A stretch of DNA of 64,000 nt from Caballeronia arationis (GTDB lineage Bacteria; Pseudomonadota; Gammaproteobacteria; Burkholderiales; Burkholderiaceae). The translations under genes and the position numbers were made by a program. The stretch covers positions 1 to 64,000 of the forward strand of contig NZ_FCOG02000026.1 of the NCBI RefSeq assembly GCF_001544975.2, given 5' to 3'. Of the stretch, positions 30,249-36,111 are shown piece after piece. Each line of letters starts with the position of its first letter. Position 1 is the stretch's first letter. A model generated the notes under the pieces. It made no database searches, was not told the DNA's origin, and was given only the letters and a program-made list of their open reading frames with translations.

Positions 30249-30374
30249 GGAACTGGTCGCAACTGGACAGATTCGCGTCGCAATCGGTCGAGCCGTGATC
30301 AATATGGTCTCTTACTTTTACATCATCGGTGCTTGAGCTTGCCGCTAGGGCTTTTTTGTTCACACCGGTTGATG

Positions 30375-31006
30375 TTTCTGCGCTTTCGTGAAACTTGCTT
30401 TCTTAGTGGTCTATTAGCACTGCCCCTGTCCGGGGCGGCAGTCACTTTCTTTGCTGCTGCAAAGAAAGTAACCAAAGAAAGCAGCTTTTTCAGGCAACAG
30501 TCTTAGGACGGCAACGCACTGGCAATACCGATTGGCCCAGCCCCTAAGTGTCGTCCTCAAAAGACCGAGGGGCTTGGCGCGCGGCACGCACTGTGAAATC
30601 GCGCAGTGAACGAGTTGGCACAGCAGTCATTCATCCGTTTTCGCTTCGCTGGACGAGAGGTACATTTGTCGCGTGGTTGAGGTTCGCGGTCGAGGTTGAA
30701 AACCGCTGGTTTTCGGACGCCCGTCGTCCGAGCGAAGCGCGGACGGATCGGAACGAAGTGCTTACCACTTTGTTGGACTGCGAGGGGTGTCAGTGCGTGC
30801 GCGCGCCAAGTCGCGTCGATGTTTGAGGGCGACACTTAGGCGCTGCACCACTCGGTAATGCGAGTGCGTTGCCGGTTTGTGACTGGTGCCAGAAAAGCTG
30901 CTTTCTTTGCTTACTTTATTTGCAGCAGCAAAGAAAGTAAGTCCCGCCCCGGACAGGGGCAGAGCTAATAGACCACTAAGAAAACAAGTTTCATAGAAGC
31001 GCAGAA
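30375..31006. mobile_element. Foldback (long inverted repeat) element, copy 1
   Basis: About 630 bp, filling most of the 866-bp gap 30249-31114. The left arm (30390-30490) and right arm (30893-30992) are inverted repeats of about 100 bp with only a few mismatches. Weaker complementarity continues inward to about 30595 and 30785 (for example 30543-30561 against 30821-30840). Each arm contains a GCCCC-TGTCC-GGGGC hairpin and a second hairpin around CTTTGC-TGCT-GCAAAG. The centre has a 42-nt block (30615-30656) identical to copy 2 and a GTCCG/CGGAC hairpin at 30726-30744. No transposase and no clear target duplication. A non-autonomous element or intergenic repeat family is the best reading. Confidence 0.75.
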
Positions 31007-31114
31007 GGTCAAAAACCCATACGAGCCATCCCGAGCGAACGAGGGAATTCCGAGCGGCGGGGGCTCGTCCTTGTCCAACGAAACACGCAACGACAGCAGC
31101 AAGGGGATAAGCAA

Positions 31115-32263
31115 ATGAGAAAGGGAAATGCCGCCAGACTCGCGGGACTCGCACTAGCAGCGGGCGTGTCGAGTGCGCCCGCGATCGTTCATGCTCAGAG
31201 CAGCGTCACGCTGTACGGCATTCTCGACGCCGGCATCACCTACGTGAACAACACGGGCGGTGCGCATGTGTGGAAATTCGACGACGGCATTTCGTACGGC
31301 AACCGTATCGGCTTCAAGGGCGTCGAGGATCTCGGCGGCGGCCTTCAGGCGGTCTTCGTGCTCGAGTCTGGCTTTCACCTCGGTAACGGGCAATACGGCT
31401 TCGGCGGCGCAGAGTTCGGCCGGCAGGCCTATGTGGGCCTCAAGAATGCGTGGGGCACGGTCTCGCTCGGTAACCAGCTCGACATGACCGAGGAGTTCGT
31501 CTATCTCTACAACATTTCCGCGTGGGCAAGCGGCTATGCGATCCACCAGGGCGACTTCGACCGCATGAACGGCGACCGCTTGCCGAACTCGATCAAGTTC
31601 CTCTCGAGCGATTTCTCCGGCTTCACGTTCGGCGGCATGTATTCGTTCGGCAACAACGCGGGCGACTTCCATCGGAACAGCGCATGGAGCGTGGGCGCGC
31701 ACTACGCGCGCAACACGTTCAACATCGGTGCGGCCTATACGCAGCTGAACAATCCATTCGGCATCTACGCGTTCGATCCTTACGCGATGATCGGCACGCG
31801 CACTTTCCTCGGCCAGCCGACGGTGTCCGTCGATCCGGCAACCGGCGCGGTGACCGATCTCTATATCGCGAATTCGTTCCCCGTCGACAAGCAAGGCGCC
31901 TTCGCGATCGGCGCGGCCTATACGATCGGCGACGTGATGCTCTCGGGCAACTTCACCTATACGACGATCAAGGGCCTGGGCGTGACGTCGCACATGCAGG
32001 TGTACGAAGGCGGCGCGTCGTACAGCTTCACGCCGGCGCTCGCGCTGTACGGCGGCTACCAGCACACGAGCTTCGAAGGCAATCACTGGAATCAGGGCTC
32101 GCTCGGACTGCACTACCTGCTCTCCAAGCGCACCGACGTCTACATCTCCGGCGACTATCTGCGCGCCTCTGATGGCGTGAACGCGGTGATCGGCTATAGC
32201 TTCACGCCGTCGTCGTCGAATACGCAAAGCGACGTGCGCATCGGCATGCGCCATTCGTTCTGA
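31115..32263 (+). CDS. Gram-negative trimeric porin
   Basis: 382 residues. Signal peptide 1-28 ending in IVHAQ, then SSVTLYGILDAGITYVNN, the standard first strand of beta-proteobacterial general porins. Repeated amphipathic strands include GFKGVEDLGGGLQAVFVLESGF and RQAYVGLKNAWGTVSLGNQ, and the chain ends IGMRHSF with the terminal phenylalanine needed for outer-membrane assembly. The ribosome site AAGGGG lies 8 bp before the ATG. It is placed among choline and carnitine genes and 108 bp from foldback copy 1, so it may serve quaternary-amine uptake, but substrate cannot be told from sequence. It converges on cdhR with 3 bp between stops. Confidence 0.92.
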   Translation: MRKGNAARLAGLALAAGVSSAPAIVHAQSSVTLYGILDAGITYVNNTGGAHVWKFDDGISYGNRIGFKGVEDLGGGLQAVFVLESGFHLGNGQYGFGGAEFGRQAYVGLKNAWGTVSLGNQLDMTEEFVYLYNISAWASGYAIHQGDFDRMNGDRLPNSIKFLSSDFSGFTFGGMYSFGNNAGDFHRNSAWSVGAHYARNTFNIGAAYTQLNNPFGIYAFDPYAMIGTRTFLGQPTVSVDPATGAVTDLYIANSFPVDKQGAFAIGAAYTIGDVMLSGNFTYTTIKGLGVTSHMQVYEGGASYSFTPALALYGGYQHTSFEGNHWNQGSLGLHYLLSKRTDVYISGDYLRASDGVNAVIGYSFTPSSSNTQSDVRIGMRHSF

Positions 32264-32266
32264 GCC

Positions 32267-33250
32267 TCAGTTGATCGCGGCGGCTTCCATCGACTGAGCG
32301 GAAGCCGTCGTGCGCAGTGCGCTGCGGTCGTGCCGCGGACTCGTGCCGAAGCGCGCGCGATACGTGCGCGAGAAATGCGAAGGCGATTCGAAGCCGCACG
32401 CCACGCAGACCGCCATGATCGACATGTCGGTCTGTTGCAGCAATTCGCGGGCGCGTGTGAGACGCAGGCCCAGATAGAAATGCGTCGGCGTGTCCTTCAT
32501 TGCCGAGCAGAAGAGGCGTTCCAGTTGCCGTCGCGTCACGCCGATCGAATCAGCGAGTTCGTCCGGCGAAAGCGGCTCTTCCATGTGCTGCTCCATCACC
32601 CCGATCACCTGGATCAGCTTGCGGCTGTGGATGCCGTAACGCGCCGCGATCTGCATGCGCTGATGATCCGAACGCTGCCGGATGCGCCCGAGCACGAATT
32701 GCTCGGAGACCTGCGCAGCCAGCTCCGCGCCATGACGGCGCCCGATCACGTCCAGCATGAGATCGATCGATGCGGTGCCGCCCGCGCACGTGATGCGCCG
32801 CTCGTCGATTTCGAACAACTCCTCGCTCACTTCGAGCGACGGATAGCGCTCCTTGAATGCCGACGCCGCTTCCCAATGCACGGTCACGCGCTTGTCCTGG
32901 AGCAGACCCGCTTCGGCGAGAATGAAGCTGCCCGTATCGATGCCCCCGAGCGTCACGTTCGCGCGGTCGAGCCGCCGCAGCCATTCGCCCGTCTCGCGCG
33001 TATAGCGCGCAAGCGGCTCGAAGCCCGCGACCACGAACACGGCGCTCGCATCCTTCACGCTGCCGAATGCGCCTTCCGCGTTCAGTGATATGCCGTTGCT
33101 CGCAGCGACCGGTCCACCATCCGCGCTGACAATGTGCCATCGGTACAGCGTGCCGCTGAACCGGTTCGCGACGCGCAGCGGTTCGATCGCCGACATGAAT
33201 CCGATCGACGAGAACTCGGGCAACAGCAGGAAATAGAAGTCTTCGGTCAT
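32267..33250 (-). CDS. cdhR: CdhR-like AraC-family activator of carnitine catabolism
   Basis: 327 residues: N-terminal DJ-1/PfpI-like domain (FYFLLLPEFSSIGFMSAIEPLRVANRF, WHIVSADGGPVAASNGIS) with LGGIDTGSFILAEAGLL, where aspartate replaces the cysteine present in the GbdR paralogue, then an AraC domain (LSPDELADSIGVTRRQLERLF and RARELLQQTDMSIMAVCVACGFESPSHFSRTYR). In Pseudomonas CdhR activates caiX-cdhCAB in response to carnitine. Here it is divergent from caiX across 197 bp, matching that arrangement. The ATG at 33250 is preferred; a TTG at 33277 would add nine residues. Confidence 0.9.
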   Translation of the reverse strand: MTEDFYFLLLPEFSSIGFMSAIEPLRVANRFSGTLYRWHIVSADGGPVAASNGISLNAEGAFGSVKDASAVFVVAGFEPLARYTRETGEWLRRLDRANVTLGGIDTGSFILAEAGLLQDKRVTVHWEAASAFKERYPSLEVSEELFEIDERRITCAGGTASIDLMLDVIGRRHGAELAAQVSEQFVLGRIRQRSDHQRMQIAARYGIHSRKLIQVIGVMEQHMEEPLSPDELADSIGVTRRQLERLFCSAMKDTPTHFYLGLRLTRARELLQQTDMSIMAVCVACGFESPSHFSRTYRARFGTSPRHDRSALRTTASAQSMEAAAIN

Positions 33251-33474
33251 CGGGTGCGCGCGCGGTTTCTTGAACAAGACACGCTAGCAAGCCGAAATTA
33301 GCCGCGCAATCGGGCGTCGCCCGGAGCATCGGGCGAAGGCCGACGGCACGTCGCAGGCAGTCAACTCGCGGTCGCAACCGGTCGCCTGCGCGCCTTTATG
33401 CGGCGGTACTTTCATGCACGGGCAGACAGAACGCCCGCCTCACAGAAACGCAAAGTCAACGGAACCCCGACGCT

Positions 33475-34428
33475 ATGAGACCTCTTTTCAAATCAGTGCT
33501 CGCCAGCCTGTGCATCGCATCGGCGTCGGCCGGCGCGGCCCACGCGCAGGCGAAGGAAGACGAGTCGTGCCGCACCGTGCGCTTCGTCGATATCGGCTGG
33601 ACCGACATCACATCGACGACCGCGCTCGCCTCGGTTGTCTTCGAAGGGCTCGGCTATGCGCCGAAGACGACGGTCGCCTCGGTGCCGATCTCGCTCGCGG
33701 GCCTGAAGAGCAAGCAGATCGACGTGTCGCTCGGCTACTGGTGGCCGGTGCAGCAAAAGGCGGTCGAACCGTTCCTCGAATCGAAGTCGATCCAGAAGAT
33801 CGAACCGCCGAATCTGTCGGGCGCGAAGGCGACGCTAGCCGTGCCGAGCTACGAATACGAGGCGGGGTTGAAGACGTTTGCCGACATCGCAAAACATCGC
33901 GACGAACTCGACGGCAAGATCTACGGCATCGAGCCCGGCAGCAGCGCGAACGCGAAGATCCAGAAGATGATCGACACGAACCAGTTCGGTCTTGGCGGTT
34001 TCAAGCTCGTGCAATCGAGCGAGGCGGGCATGCTCGTGACGGTCGAGCGCGCGATCCGCGACAAGAAGTGGGTCGTCTTCCTCGGCTGGGAGCCGCATCC
34101 GATGAACATCCAGATGAAGATCGACTATCTCTCGGGCGGCGATGAAGTGTTCGGCCCGAACTACGGCGAAGCGCGCGTCTATACGCTGACCAATACCGAC
34201 TTCATCGCGCGCTGCCCGAACGCGGGCAAGCTCGTCACGAACCTGCGCTTCACGACGCAACTGGAGAACCAGTTGATGCAGCCGGTGATGAACAAGGAGC
34301 GTCCCGCCGACGCGGCGAAGGCTTACCTGAAGAAGAATCCGCAGGTGCTCGATGCGTGGCTTGCGGGCGTGAAGACGGTTGACGGCAAGGACGGCTTGCC
34401 GGCGGTCAGGCAGTACCTCGGTCTGTGA
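33475..34428 (+). CDS. caiX: Carnitine periplasmic binding protein CaiX
   Basis: 317 residues, signal peptide about 1-24 ([13 protein letters not shown]). Same OpuAC/ChoX-like fold as the protein at 29301-30248: [69 protein letters not shown] and [24 protein letters not shown]. First gene of the carnitine unit and divergent from cdhR, as in P. aeruginosa caiX-cdhCAB. It works with an ABC ATPase/permease pair not encoded here. 29 bp separate it from cdhC. Confidence 0.9.
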
Positions 34429-34457
34429 ATGTAGGACACACAAAGGACGGCGCGAAC

Positions 34458-35384
34458 ATGAACTACGAAGTGATCGTGACCTGCGCGGTAACGGGCGCGG
34501 GCGATACGACGAACAAGCACCCGGCGATTCCGGTCACGCCGAAGCAGATCGCCGAGGCGGCCATCGAAGCGGCGCGCGCGGGCGCCACGGTAGCGCATTG
34601 CCACGTGCGCGATCCGCGGACAGGGCGCGGCAGTCGCGATCCCGCGCTGTATCGCGAACTGATGGATCGCATCCGGTCGTCGGACGTGGATGTCATCATC
34701 AACCTGACCGCGGGCATGGGCGGCGATCTGGAGATCGGAAGGGGCGAAGCGCCGATGCAGTTCGGTGCGGGCACGGATCTCGTTGGCGGGCTGACGCGGC
34801 TTGCGCACGTCGAGGAACTGCTGCCGGAGATCTGCACGCTGGATTGCGGCACGCTCAATTTCGGCGATGGCGACTACATCTATGTATCCACGCCCGCGCA
34901 ATTGCGGGCGGGCGCGAAGCGCATTCAGGAACTCGGCGTGAAGCCTGAGCTTGAGATCTTCGATACGGGTCATCTGTGGTTTGCCAAGCAGATGCTGAAG
35001 GAAGGTCTGCTTGACGATCCGCCCTTGTTCCAGCTTTGCATGGGCATTCCGTGGGGCGCACCGCCGGATACCGGCACAATGAAGTCGATGGTCGACAACA
35101 TGCCGCCGGGGGCGCACTGGGCCGGGTTCGGTATCGGCCGGATGCAGATGCCGATGGTCGCGCAGGCGATGCTGCTCGGGGGGCACGTGCGTGTCGGGCT
35201 CGAGGACAATCTTTATCTCGATCGCGGGGTGCATGCGAGCAATGGGTCGCTTGTGCAACGCGCTGTCGAGATCATCGAGCGGCTTGGCGGGCGGGCGCTT
35301 ACTCCTGCGGAAGGGCGCAGGAAGATTGGGCTGCCTCCGCGGGGGGAGCGGGCGTTGGACCGGCGGGCGTTCAACACCGCTTGA
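34458..35384 (+). CDS. cdhC: 3-dehydrocarnitine cleavage enzyme CdhC (BKACE/DUF849 family)
   Basis: 308-residue beta-keto acid cleavage enzyme. It condenses 3-dehydrocarnitine with acetyl-CoA to give acetoacetate and betainyl-CoA. Zn-binding and family motifs: [97 protein letters not shown] and [26 protein letters not shown]. The TGA at 35382-35384 lies in the sequence CCG-x-TTGATGTTT that also occurs at the left edge of foldback copy 1, so the element boundary may have supplied the stop codon and last residues. Confidence 0.93.
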
Positions 35385-36009
35385 TGTTTTTTTCGCTTCC
35401 ATGGAACTTGCTTTCTTAGCGGTCTATTAGCTCTGCCCCTGTCCGGGGCGGGACTTACTTTCTTTGCTGCTGCAAAGAAAGTAAGCAAAGAAAGCAGCTA
35501 GGGGGCCAACGGTGTTAGGACGTAACCACACTAGCACTACTGAGTGGCCCAGCGCCTAAGTGTCGCCCTCAAAGGACTTCAGGGGCTTGGCCGCGCGGCA
35601 CGCACTGTGTCATCGCACAGCCAACGAATTGGCACAGCAGTCATTCATCCGTTTTCGCTTCGCTGGACGAAAGGTGCATCAGTCGTGCGGTTTAGGTTCG
35701 CGGTCGTTGCAATCCGCTGGTTTTCGGTTGGGCCCCTCGTCCGAGCGAAGCGCGGACGGACCGGAACGCAGCGCATACCACTCCGGCGGAGCCTCAGTGG
35801 TGTCAGTGCGTGCCGCGCACCAAGCCGCGTGGATGGTTGAGGGAGACACTTAGGCGCTGCGCCACTCGGTATTGCTAGTGTGTTGACGTGTTGTGACTGC
35901 TGCCAGAAAAGCTGCTTTCTTTGCTTACTTTCTTTGCAGCAGCAAAGAAAGTAAGTCCCGCCCCGGACAGGGGCAGAGCTAACAGACCACTAAGAAAGCA
36001 AGTTTCACG
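35385..36009. mobile_element. Foldback (long inverted repeat) element, copy 2, between cdhC and cdhA
   Basis: Same element as at 30375-31006. Left arm about 35403-35500 and right arm about 35911-36007 are inverted repeats of about 97 bp with about four differences. Each carries a perfect 14-bp stem with 4-nt loop (35454-35467 with 35472-35485; 35924-35937 with 35942-35955) and a GCCCC-TGTCC-GGGGC hairpin. The central 42 nt (35629-35670) are identical to copy 1 at 30615-30656. It fills nearly all of the 727-bp gap between cdhC and cdhA, genes that are adjacent in the Pseudomonas operon. No coding sequence is credible inside. Confidence 0.78.
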
Positions 36010-36010
36010 A

Positions 36011-36046
36011 GAGAAAGAGAAAGAGAAAGAGAAAGAGAAAGAGAAA
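36011..36046. repeat. Hexanucleotide microsatellite (GAGAAA)6
   Basis: Six perfect tandem copies of GAGAAA start immediately at the right edge of foldback copy 2 and end 65 bp before cdhA. Unusual purine-only tract for this GC-rich genome and prone to length change by slippage. Confidence 0.9.
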
Positions 36047-36111
36047 GAGCAAGCGAAGCGACTAGCAGCAAAGCAGGGACCACCCTCAACCTCCGTCAGG
36101 AAATAACCGGT

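Follow-up and report, generated by a model that had tools for sequence, protein, structure and literature searches.

What are the two long palindromes of the window, the whole 64,000-nt stretch of Caballeronia arationis DNA analysed here, and what keeps them recognisable? A sequence-only reading had described two copies of a foldback element with a common architecture, at 30375-31006 and about 35385-36009, and both are present. The explanation preferred here, at a probability of roughly 0.57, is that they belong to a family of non-autonomous, MITE-like long palindromes that is homogenised by recombination and whose arms perhaps terminate transcription. Many copies are dispersed, at sites filled or empty according to species and mostly just behind stop codons. 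In most of the pairs tested, copies of the same genome resemble each other more than orthologous copies do, and at a site with one copy per genome in a related genus the arms have been homogenised with each other and the centre has been inverted.

Architecture and conserved blocks

The whole element is an imperfect palindrome of 570-640 bp with an asymmetric centre and two halves, A and B. The terminal inverted arms are of high identity, as had been claimed, with 91% over 114 nt in copy 1 (30376-30489/30893-31006) and 83% over 193 nt in copy 2 (35380-35572/35837-36029). The weaker complementarity further inward is also real, identity to the own reverse complement being 0.76 in copy 1 and 0.73 in copy 2 by a measure without shuffled control. 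Copy 1 folds as a single hairpin at -419 kcal/mol, with a z-score of -30 relative to 20 shuffles. Conservation over 25 own-genome copies delimits a unit that starts with GGTCTATTAGC and ends with GCTAATAGACC, located at 30408-30974 in copy 1 and 35421-35988 in copy 2, both on the plus strand with the A half to the left. A weaker outer end, ACACCGTTTGATG, lies about 46 nt beyond this unit and is retained in only part of the arms. Outer ends included, copy 1 spans 30362-31006 (+; ACACCGGTTGATG on the left, the right end degraded) and copy 2 spans 35370-36009 (+), where the left outer end, TTCAACACCGCTTGATG, extends over the final codons and the stop codon of the gene upstream. The 26-bp dyad ACTTTCTTTGC-TGCT-GCAAAGAAAGT, found at 30444-30469 in the left arm of copy 1, is among the most conserved own-genome blocks and served as the family-wide search pattern; its counterparts are at 30913-30938 in the right arm (one base off) and at 35457-35482 and 35927-35952 in the left and right arms of copy 2. 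A coding interior was rejected: for six ORFs lying over or next to the copies, all Pfam and NCBIfam matches were sub-threshold, and small indels vary among copies.

The identity of 42 nt between 30615-30656 and 35629-35670 was confirmed, and this core is the centre of the A half (+ in both copies). Its diverged mirror partner, the centre of the B half, is TCGTCCGAGCGAAGCGCGGACGGAT at 30724-30748 (+) in copy 1 and lies at 35737-35761 (+) in copy 2. A 50-nt stretch of the right arm is likewise identical between the copies, and the core is therefore one conserved block among several. Of 26 own-genome copies, 17 carry the exact 42-mer and 21 have no more than one mismatch to it; among 30 copies from other genomes one is exact and one has a single mismatch (both in genome G051), the remainder carrying 6-23 mismatches, and arms in other genomes match at about 83-99%. 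Private substitutions per site amount to 0.145 in the arms, 0.167 in the core and 0.41 in the interior (L007 and L040 left out of this count, L040 of the own-genome alignment, and L051 and L061 of the genus alignment). Of the proposal that an invariant core is under selection, the constraint stands and extends to the arms, but the core drifts between species and is not the invariant part of the family.

A dispersed family behind genes

The genome of the window (G000) contains 79 exact arm dyads, corresponding to about 40 copies, and elements occur in 54 of 58 Caballeronia genomes, G000 counted. This is a dispersed multi-copy family and not one local duplication, and it accounts for many contig breaks in the draft genome. 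Two further genera contain relatives: one is probably Paraburkholderia, and the other, probably Burkholderia (we infer both names), has one copy per genome at one site. The family has some attributes of a MITE, namely terminal inverted repeats, a length below about 1 kb and no transposase gene; none was found for the family, in agreement with the earlier reading, and no related autonomous element with matching ends was seen in the loci examined. In a tree of 56 elements grouping is mainly by lineage, the exceptions being L025 of G000, placed among G051 copies, and two G051 copies that join L031; loci without two recognisable anchors were left out of this tree and of the polarity counts below.

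Presence/absence polymorphism was observed at orthologous sites. At site A, none of the 13 relatives' loci with both flanking genes has an arm between them, and site D is filled in G007. Site B (33311-33347; junctions read by eye), located between divergent genes, is empty in G000, with a small hairpin CGGGCGTCGCCCG and 24 nt, and filled in G013 and G053. As had been noted, no target duplication is visible, here at sites A, B and C, with ends too ragged to exclude very short ones. The motif GCTGGCGCT stands beside element ends in 19 of 65 arms against an expectation of 0.06 per arm, and could be the true element end or the target. A candidate for cargo inside an own-genome copy, at G000:C245:45438, was rejected as a lone arm adjoining a prophage-like stretch (terminase). 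An IS as carrier was likewise rejected, since the IS481-type IS of L159 looks inserted into a copy.

In G000 the copies lie behind genes, 17 in codirectional, 8 in convergent and none in divergent position (n=25), against a baseline for divergent placement of 14 in 75 gene pairs (P 0.006) and 43% of intergenic bases. Of the codirectional cases, 13 of 14 have the A half towards the upstream gene. Elsewhere this polarity is weaker, with 13 of 16 in the original calls, 13 of 18 once L063 and L067 had been re-read (p 0.10) and one further exception in an annotated record. These counts omit elements with unclear A and B (3 in G000, 10 elsewhere) or without a gene call (2 and 3), and are non-independent, some loci of other species being orthologous to G000 loci.

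Such placement and polarity favour a selected 3'-end module, in which both arms are intrinsic terminators and the copy is kept as an insulator behind the gene. Both arms carry inward-facing, terminator-like hairpins, in copy 1 at 30426-30441 (+, 5 pairs) and 30943-30963 (-, 8 pairs) and in copy 2 at 35432-35452 (+, 8 pairs) and 35957-35977 (-, 8 pairs), and private substitutions are depleted in the arms. However, their T-rich tails are weak, and such sites do not exceed shuffles (2 found against 1.7 expected in the copy 1 region, 2 against 1.2 in that of copy 2). The weaker polarity elsewhere, the many orthologous sites without a copy and the divergent genes around site B also argue against it. 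The module is compatible with the preferred explanation, and we regard it as a credible, if tentative, minority reading.

Exchange among copies and between arms

Among the 12 shared-site pairs with a comparison set, 9 do not rise above the range of non-orthologous copies (for example, identities of.802,.699,.697,.567 and.602 against non-orthologous means of.790,.708,.708,.563 and.606), and the G000 members of these example pairs are.80-.85 alike to their own paralogues. The pair L016/L041 (.837) is over the mean and inside the range. Three pairs exceed every non-orthologous comparison, L043/L182 clearly (.926 against a maximum of.877) and L063/L168 (.649 against.634) and L067/L168 (.645 against.643) slightly, with 7 comparisons each for the latter two. 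In L005/L169 the outer ends are common to both and the inside is not; clearly common outer ends were seen in only part of the 9 shared-site pairs displayed, so that repeated insertion at hot spots may have occurred. Mosaic tracts are evident in G000, where the mean longest identical run among 24 copies is 14.5, compared with 10.1 (sd 0.2) after shuffling of columns, and 15.2 against 10.6 with L007 included. L004 and L007 differ by one base between the edges of the conserved unit, L007 being at a contig end. Within copies of G000, arm covariation is weak at best (.813 within,.807 for random A-B pairs, reached by 48 of 1000 random pairings; 24 copies, with L007, L019, L023 and L040 left out of the arm-pairing tests). 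The pattern is one of concerted evolution, in which recombination seems to preserve the likeness of copies within a genome.

The same data bear on an actively transposing MITE or foldback element, spread in lineage bursts from master copies by an existing transposase in trans and re-inserted at preferred gene ends, with no gene conversion. The lineage clades, the gain and loss of sites and the sharp GGTCTATTAGC/GCTAATAGACC edges are consistent with it, as are outer arms stacked in tandem in L060, L064, L068 and L069 and the identity of L175 and L176 in G010, which ends at the outer end CATCAAACGGTGTA. Yet only 1 of 300 own-genome pairs is more than 95% identical, which argues against a recent burst, and the mosaic tracts, the L005/L169 pattern and the failure to find a transposase also weigh against it. 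Transposition on its own is a doubtful account.

The clearest exchange between arms is seen at the Burkholderia-like single site, where arms within one genome are.936 alike against.8745 for random pairing (0 of 2000; 27 genomes). The centre is inverted between the same flanks in four genomes (L197, L156, L194 and L193; 5 of 22 comparisons, L193 resting on weak scores), between species and not within a strain. No dedicated invertase was found among 10 cargo ORFs scanned, and general recombination would be sufficient. The site sometimes holds cargo, PAAR-Tae4, and acts as a slot for T6SS effector genes. One might envisage a cassette platform, its two inverted arms of about 280 bp recombining, flipping and homogenising around a centre that is an exchangeable slot, usually empty and repeatedly given foreign cargo at one old site. 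We consider this unlikely; if true, it would be a general means of exchanging cassettes of genes behind a host gene with no integrase of its own.

For the preferred explanation, we propose that a trans-acting enzyme, for which no candidate was found, places a copy beside a gene end or a hairpin. The recombinase acting in trans that the sequence-only reading had suggested may exist, likewise without a candidate found. Conversion and inversion through general recombination of a copy's two arms would then preserve the palindrome, ectopic conversion with other copies would maintain genome-wide uniformity, and the arm hairpins may be conserved for stopping transcription entering from either side, or as recognition sites. 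Weighing against this explanation are the failure to find a transposase or an autonomous copy, the absence of a visible target duplication, the ragged outer ends, the three shared-site pairs above all non-orthologous comparisons and the position of the L004/L007 identity at a contig end. So do terminator-like sites no more numerous than in shuffles, the L025 and G051 copies that depart from the lineage grouping in the tree and within-copy conversion in G000 that is at most weak.

RNA, REP-like repeats and known systems

Each arm is homologous over its outer ~110 nt to Rfam RF02421 (Bp1_684; the Burkholderia sRNA Bp1_Cand684_SIPHT). Of 17 own-genome arms scored as candidates, 6 passed the gathering cut-off of 44 bits (best 53.5 bits), and the four arms of the window reached 43.7, 36.3, 32.9 and 25.4 bits. 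A structured RNA selected for its hairpin, possibly this sRNA, had been suggested in kind by the sequence-only reading and has in its favour these scores, the fold of copy 1, central stems that differ in step between species (by eye) and the slight within-copy arm excess. PMC3521395 reports RT-PCR validation of Bp1_Cand684 in B. pseudomallei and gives its place as pdhB-lpdA. This fits the strong Burkholderia-like match, a solo arm adjoining a gene read as dihydrolipoamide acyltransferase, and the RT-PCR signal could thus be read-through. Neither copy 1 nor copy 2 has a promoter-like site, and arm mismatches at the Burkholderia-like locus are without wobble bias (130 and 127 of the wobble type on the two strands, transversions 227), which together with the at most weak within-copy covariation argues against a conserved RNA hairpin. 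The suggestion is weakened accordingly, and we find it quite unlikely. The element had also been called undescribed: no description of the whole was recognised in literature listings and the openings of abstracts, a search of little weight as regards RF02421, but the outer arm was already described as an sRNA candidate. A family of mirror images of about 600 bases behind Caballeronia genes is apparently undescribed, and a listed sRNA family is re-read as the end of a repeat.

REP/BIME-like repeats mobilised by a RAYT-type tyrosine transposase are most improbable: inverted hairpin units lie behind genes, a Y1_Tnp match exceeds the Pfam cut-off in 57 of 58 genomes (mostly 31-36 bits) and the element-bearing G010 has a further strong one, but the units greatly exceed 20-40 nt in length, the conserved match does not track copy number and is equally present in genomes without the dyad (20 of 58), and the other further matches, in G020, G029, G046 and G055, all fall in such genomes. 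On C265, the Y1_Tnp-bearing contig of G000, no element match was found among the 40 of 82 candidates scored. REP/BIME sequences with RAYT (PMC2817692, PMC3733652) are dispersed extragenic palindromes near gene ends with inverted units, a likeness shared by our element, which differs in its unit of about 570-640 bp against 20-40 nt and in having no RAYT link shown. The main text of PMC3733652 lacks the words Burkholderia, Ralstonia and Cupriavidus, and has 'C. taiwanensis' among species with CGTC repeats.

RF02421 models one arm as an sRNA, whereas the element pairs that arm in mirror around 570-640 bp. Long palindromes that are nearly perfect are generally regarded as unstable in bacteria; many Caballeronia genomes nonetheless keep dozens of them. 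With shared sites of largely unshared sequence, exchange tracts and an invertible centre in a related genus, the family is a tractable, natural test case for concerted evolution of dispersed bacterial repeats. Mobile insertion cassettes have inverted ends around cargo genes and no transposase, as has the Burkholderia-like locus, which differs in its arms of ~280 bp, in cargo found at one shared site and in empty forms being commoner than filled ones. MITEs and foldback elements have long inverted ends, no coding capacity, many intergenic copies and presence/absence among relatives. The present element resembles them in its long inverted ends, lack of detected coding capacity, many intergenic copies and presence/absence; it differs in that no target duplication or partner transposase was found, in being nearly wholly palindromic and in that its copies are homogenised within the genome.

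Architecture and distribution of the element

The two foldback copies picked out by the sequence-only reading are real, and each (conserved units at 30408-30974 and 35421-35988) is palindromic nearly end to end, including the inner complementarity. Self reverse-complement alignment of 49 fetched elements with both arms, a measure without shuffled control, gave identities of 0.53-0.82 (0.70-0.79 in 36 of them), and copy 1 is predicted to fold as a single hairpin at -419 kcal/mol, with a z of -30 relative to 20 shuffles. The conserved unit is sharply edged (GGTCTATTAGC...GCTAATAGACC), and each arm carries one GC hairpin and one 26-bp dyad, ACTTTCTTTGC-TGCT-GCAAAGAAAGT. The element centre is asymmetric, with the 42-nt core (30615-30656 and 35629-35670) in the A half and a diverged mirror version of it in the B half. 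This centre occurs in both orientations across copies, and the relatives' genomes G012, G040, G047, G048 and G049 have the same arms around a different interior. A GAGAAA hexamer array abuts the right end of copy 2 (36010-36050). At loci L060, L064, L068 and L069, tandem stacks of outer arm pieces adjoin the element on its outside, a pattern resembling later insertion of copies at the margins of existing ones.

Many copies exist elsewhere, and the pair is not the product of one local duplication. The exact dyad pattern, searched over 398 family genomes in 25 genera, is present in 72 genomes and 3 genera, with 79 occurrences in the own genome (G000), 208 in G019 and none in 20 of the 58 genomes of the genus; a control pattern was absent from the matches listed. 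DNA similarity search matched 54 of the 58, own genome counted. The exact 42-mer matched one database record, of Caballeronia telluris, in a search where own-genome records were possibly excluded, and partial plasmid matches (12-30% of the query) comprised five records from Caballeronia and two from Paraburkholderia. Rfam family RF02421 (Bp1_684), homologous to the outer arm, matches 28 of 39 chosen genomes and 5 of 10 genera (0 of 7 genomes in genus g3). A scan of 200 genomes sampled from the order, with stricter filtering, gave 3 matches; in g11, a genus which we infer to be Burkholderia, the count is 39 of 41.

Contigs C154, C164, C199, C203, C211, C221, C231, C293, C303, C308 and C393 of G000 end in or beside element copies, and this draft assembly breaks at the repeats. 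An IS481-type insertion sequence apparently lies within a copy in G038 (L159, 1638-2917), a lone arm in the own genome adjoins prophage-like DNA that includes a small terminase (L157, 1939-5690), and G010, a close relative with elements, has a strong Y1_Tnp match (C25, 10759-11124; 151 bits).

Turnover of sites and conservation of core and arms

No arm lies between the genes flanking copy 1 in any of the 13 relatives' loci holding both genes, and a third site, site B (33311-33347), flanked by the AraC-type gene and the second ChoX-type gene of the window, is empty in G000 and filled in G013 and G053. There the insertion directly follows a small hairpin, about 24 bases of G000 sequence are absent, and neither genome shows a target duplication. 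G007 carries an element at a fourth site. An element end follows the gene preceding copy 2 also in G010, and none does in G037, G056, G038 or G033.

The core had been held to be invariant. It is indeed constrained in the own genome, being exact in 17 of 26 copies and within one mismatch in 21, but among 30 copies of other genomes one was exact and one had a single mismatch (both in G051), the remainder differing at 6-23 positions. Private substitutions, counted over 24 own-genome copies, came to 0.145 per site for the arms, 0.167 for the core and 0.41 for the interior, and privately changed sites numbered 21 of 159 in the arms versus 146 of 410 in the interior (p 4e-8). Judged from these alignments, the constraint on the core is local and the family is defined by its arms, because the core drifts elsewhere and the arms from other genomes still agree at about 83-99% across at least 79 nt.

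Proposed exchange between arms and between copies

A locus in g11 carries an inverted arm pair whose neighbours are ORFs interpreted as an AraC-type regulator on one side and an acetylornithine-aminotransferase-like gene on the other. Of 27 fetched loci, 24 entered a flank comparison, and all 24 have matching flanks on both sides. Over the 27 genomes, arms of one genome were.936 alike, versus.8745 under random pairing (0/2000), and the nearest arm was the own partner for 17 of 27 left and 20 of 27 right arms. Arm mismatches there show no wobble bias (130 vs 127, transversions 227). L197, L156, L194 and L193 carry the centre in inverted orientation with respect to the flanks (5 of 22 comparisons; L193 with weak scores). 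Recombination between the inverted arms would account for the palindrome, the arm homogeneity and these inversions together.

Some arm pairs also enclose cargo. Among 33 same-contig pairs of the g11 survey (positions checked in part), 27 have a short gap of 0.4-0.8 kb, and in 6 the arms enclose 2-4.3 kb; cargo was found in 4 of 7 pairs from the 39-genome RF02421 survey, 3 of whose 7 genomes recur in the g11 survey. In L150 (3578-5146), arms 97.5% identical surround a T6SS effector set of PAAR protein (1.3e-9) and Tae4 (4.2e-25), accompanied by two ORFs of no assigned family; the cargo includes a small membrane-type ORF. L151 and L152 are homologous to this cargo. L153 holds a Mutator-type (PF00872) transposase, and in L158, of a g20 (read as Paraburkholderia) genome, 238-bp arms enclose LuxR-type and DUF535 ORFs within 3.7 kb. 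The strong g11 RF02421 match in L120-L126 (around 1501-1613) is a solo arm beside a dihydrolipoamide acyltransferase-like gene; read-through could be the source of the sRNA named after it.

Shared sites, identified by flank comparison among fetched loci, yielded 15 pairs, not independent of one another, of which 12 have a non-orthologous comparison set. In 9 of the 12, identity stayed within or below the range seen for non-orthologous copies: L005/L169 (.802), L016/L041 (.837) and L029/L171 (.686), each against a mean of.790; L006/L177 (.699) and L025/L174 (.697), against.708; L010/L055 (.567, mean.563), L010/L068 (.602, mean.606), L025/L065 (.562, mean.551) and, at the maximum, L065/L174 (.556, mean.553). 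L043/L182 was above the range (.926, mean.826), and L063/L168 (.649, mean.622) and L067/L168 (.645, mean.632) were slightly so. For L005/L169 and L043/L182 the outer ends can be aligned at both edges; in the remaining 7 displayed pairs they are common on one side or unclear. The element tree groups mainly by lineage (G000 with G051; G010; G013 with G053), with L025, L031, L170 and L172 crossing between G000 and G051, and the copies form mosaics, their longest identical run averaging 14.5 versus 10.1 (sd 0.2) in column shuffles. Exchange between copies would produce such concerted evolution, with genome-uniform families, in Caballeronia.

Covariance between the arms, suggested as a check, gave a slight within-copy excess in G000 (A-B likeness.813, versus.807 for random pairs), but 48 of 1000 random pairings reached it, so within-copy pairing is kept weakly if at all.

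Genomic setting, possible function and affinity

By GC3-based gene calls, 28 own-genome copies comprise 17 in codirectional, 8 in convergent and none in divergent settings, with 3 undetermined; in the baseline, 14 of 75 gene pairs are divergent (P 0.006 for 0/25), as are 43% of intergenic bases. In other species, 21 elements gave 12 codirectional, 4 convergent, 2 divergent and 3 undetermined calls. In both divergent ones (L063, L067) a stop codon immediately precedes the element, and they look codirectional; the site B element of G013 and G053 is located between divergent genes. The start of most elements is no more than about 60 bases from a stop codon, and copy 2 overlaps its upstream gene's last codons and stop. 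Among codirectional own-genome cases with both halves typable, 13 of 14 have the A half toward the upstream gene (p 0.002); in other genomes the figure is 13 of 16 as called, or 13 of 18 once L063 and L067 are re-read (p 0.10); annotated record L210 is an additional exception, and the polarity is suggestive. Beyond the 3' end of the ChoX-like gene, about 30 nt at 30256-30285 (GTCGCAACTGGACAGATTCGCGTCGCAAT) are nearly identical in three relatives, with differing surroundings, and are possibly a regulator site.

The arm hairpins resemble inward-facing terminators, a role consistent with their placement; since their number is not above that in shuffles, they are candidates for it. The lack of promoter-like sites and wobble bias makes the expressed structured RNA proposed earlier a weaker possibility. 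The element had also been called undescribed, which holds insofar as no published description was recognised in the open-licence literature, but its arm was already in Rfam. We file the element with the non-autonomous interspersed repeats, as a variant of them.
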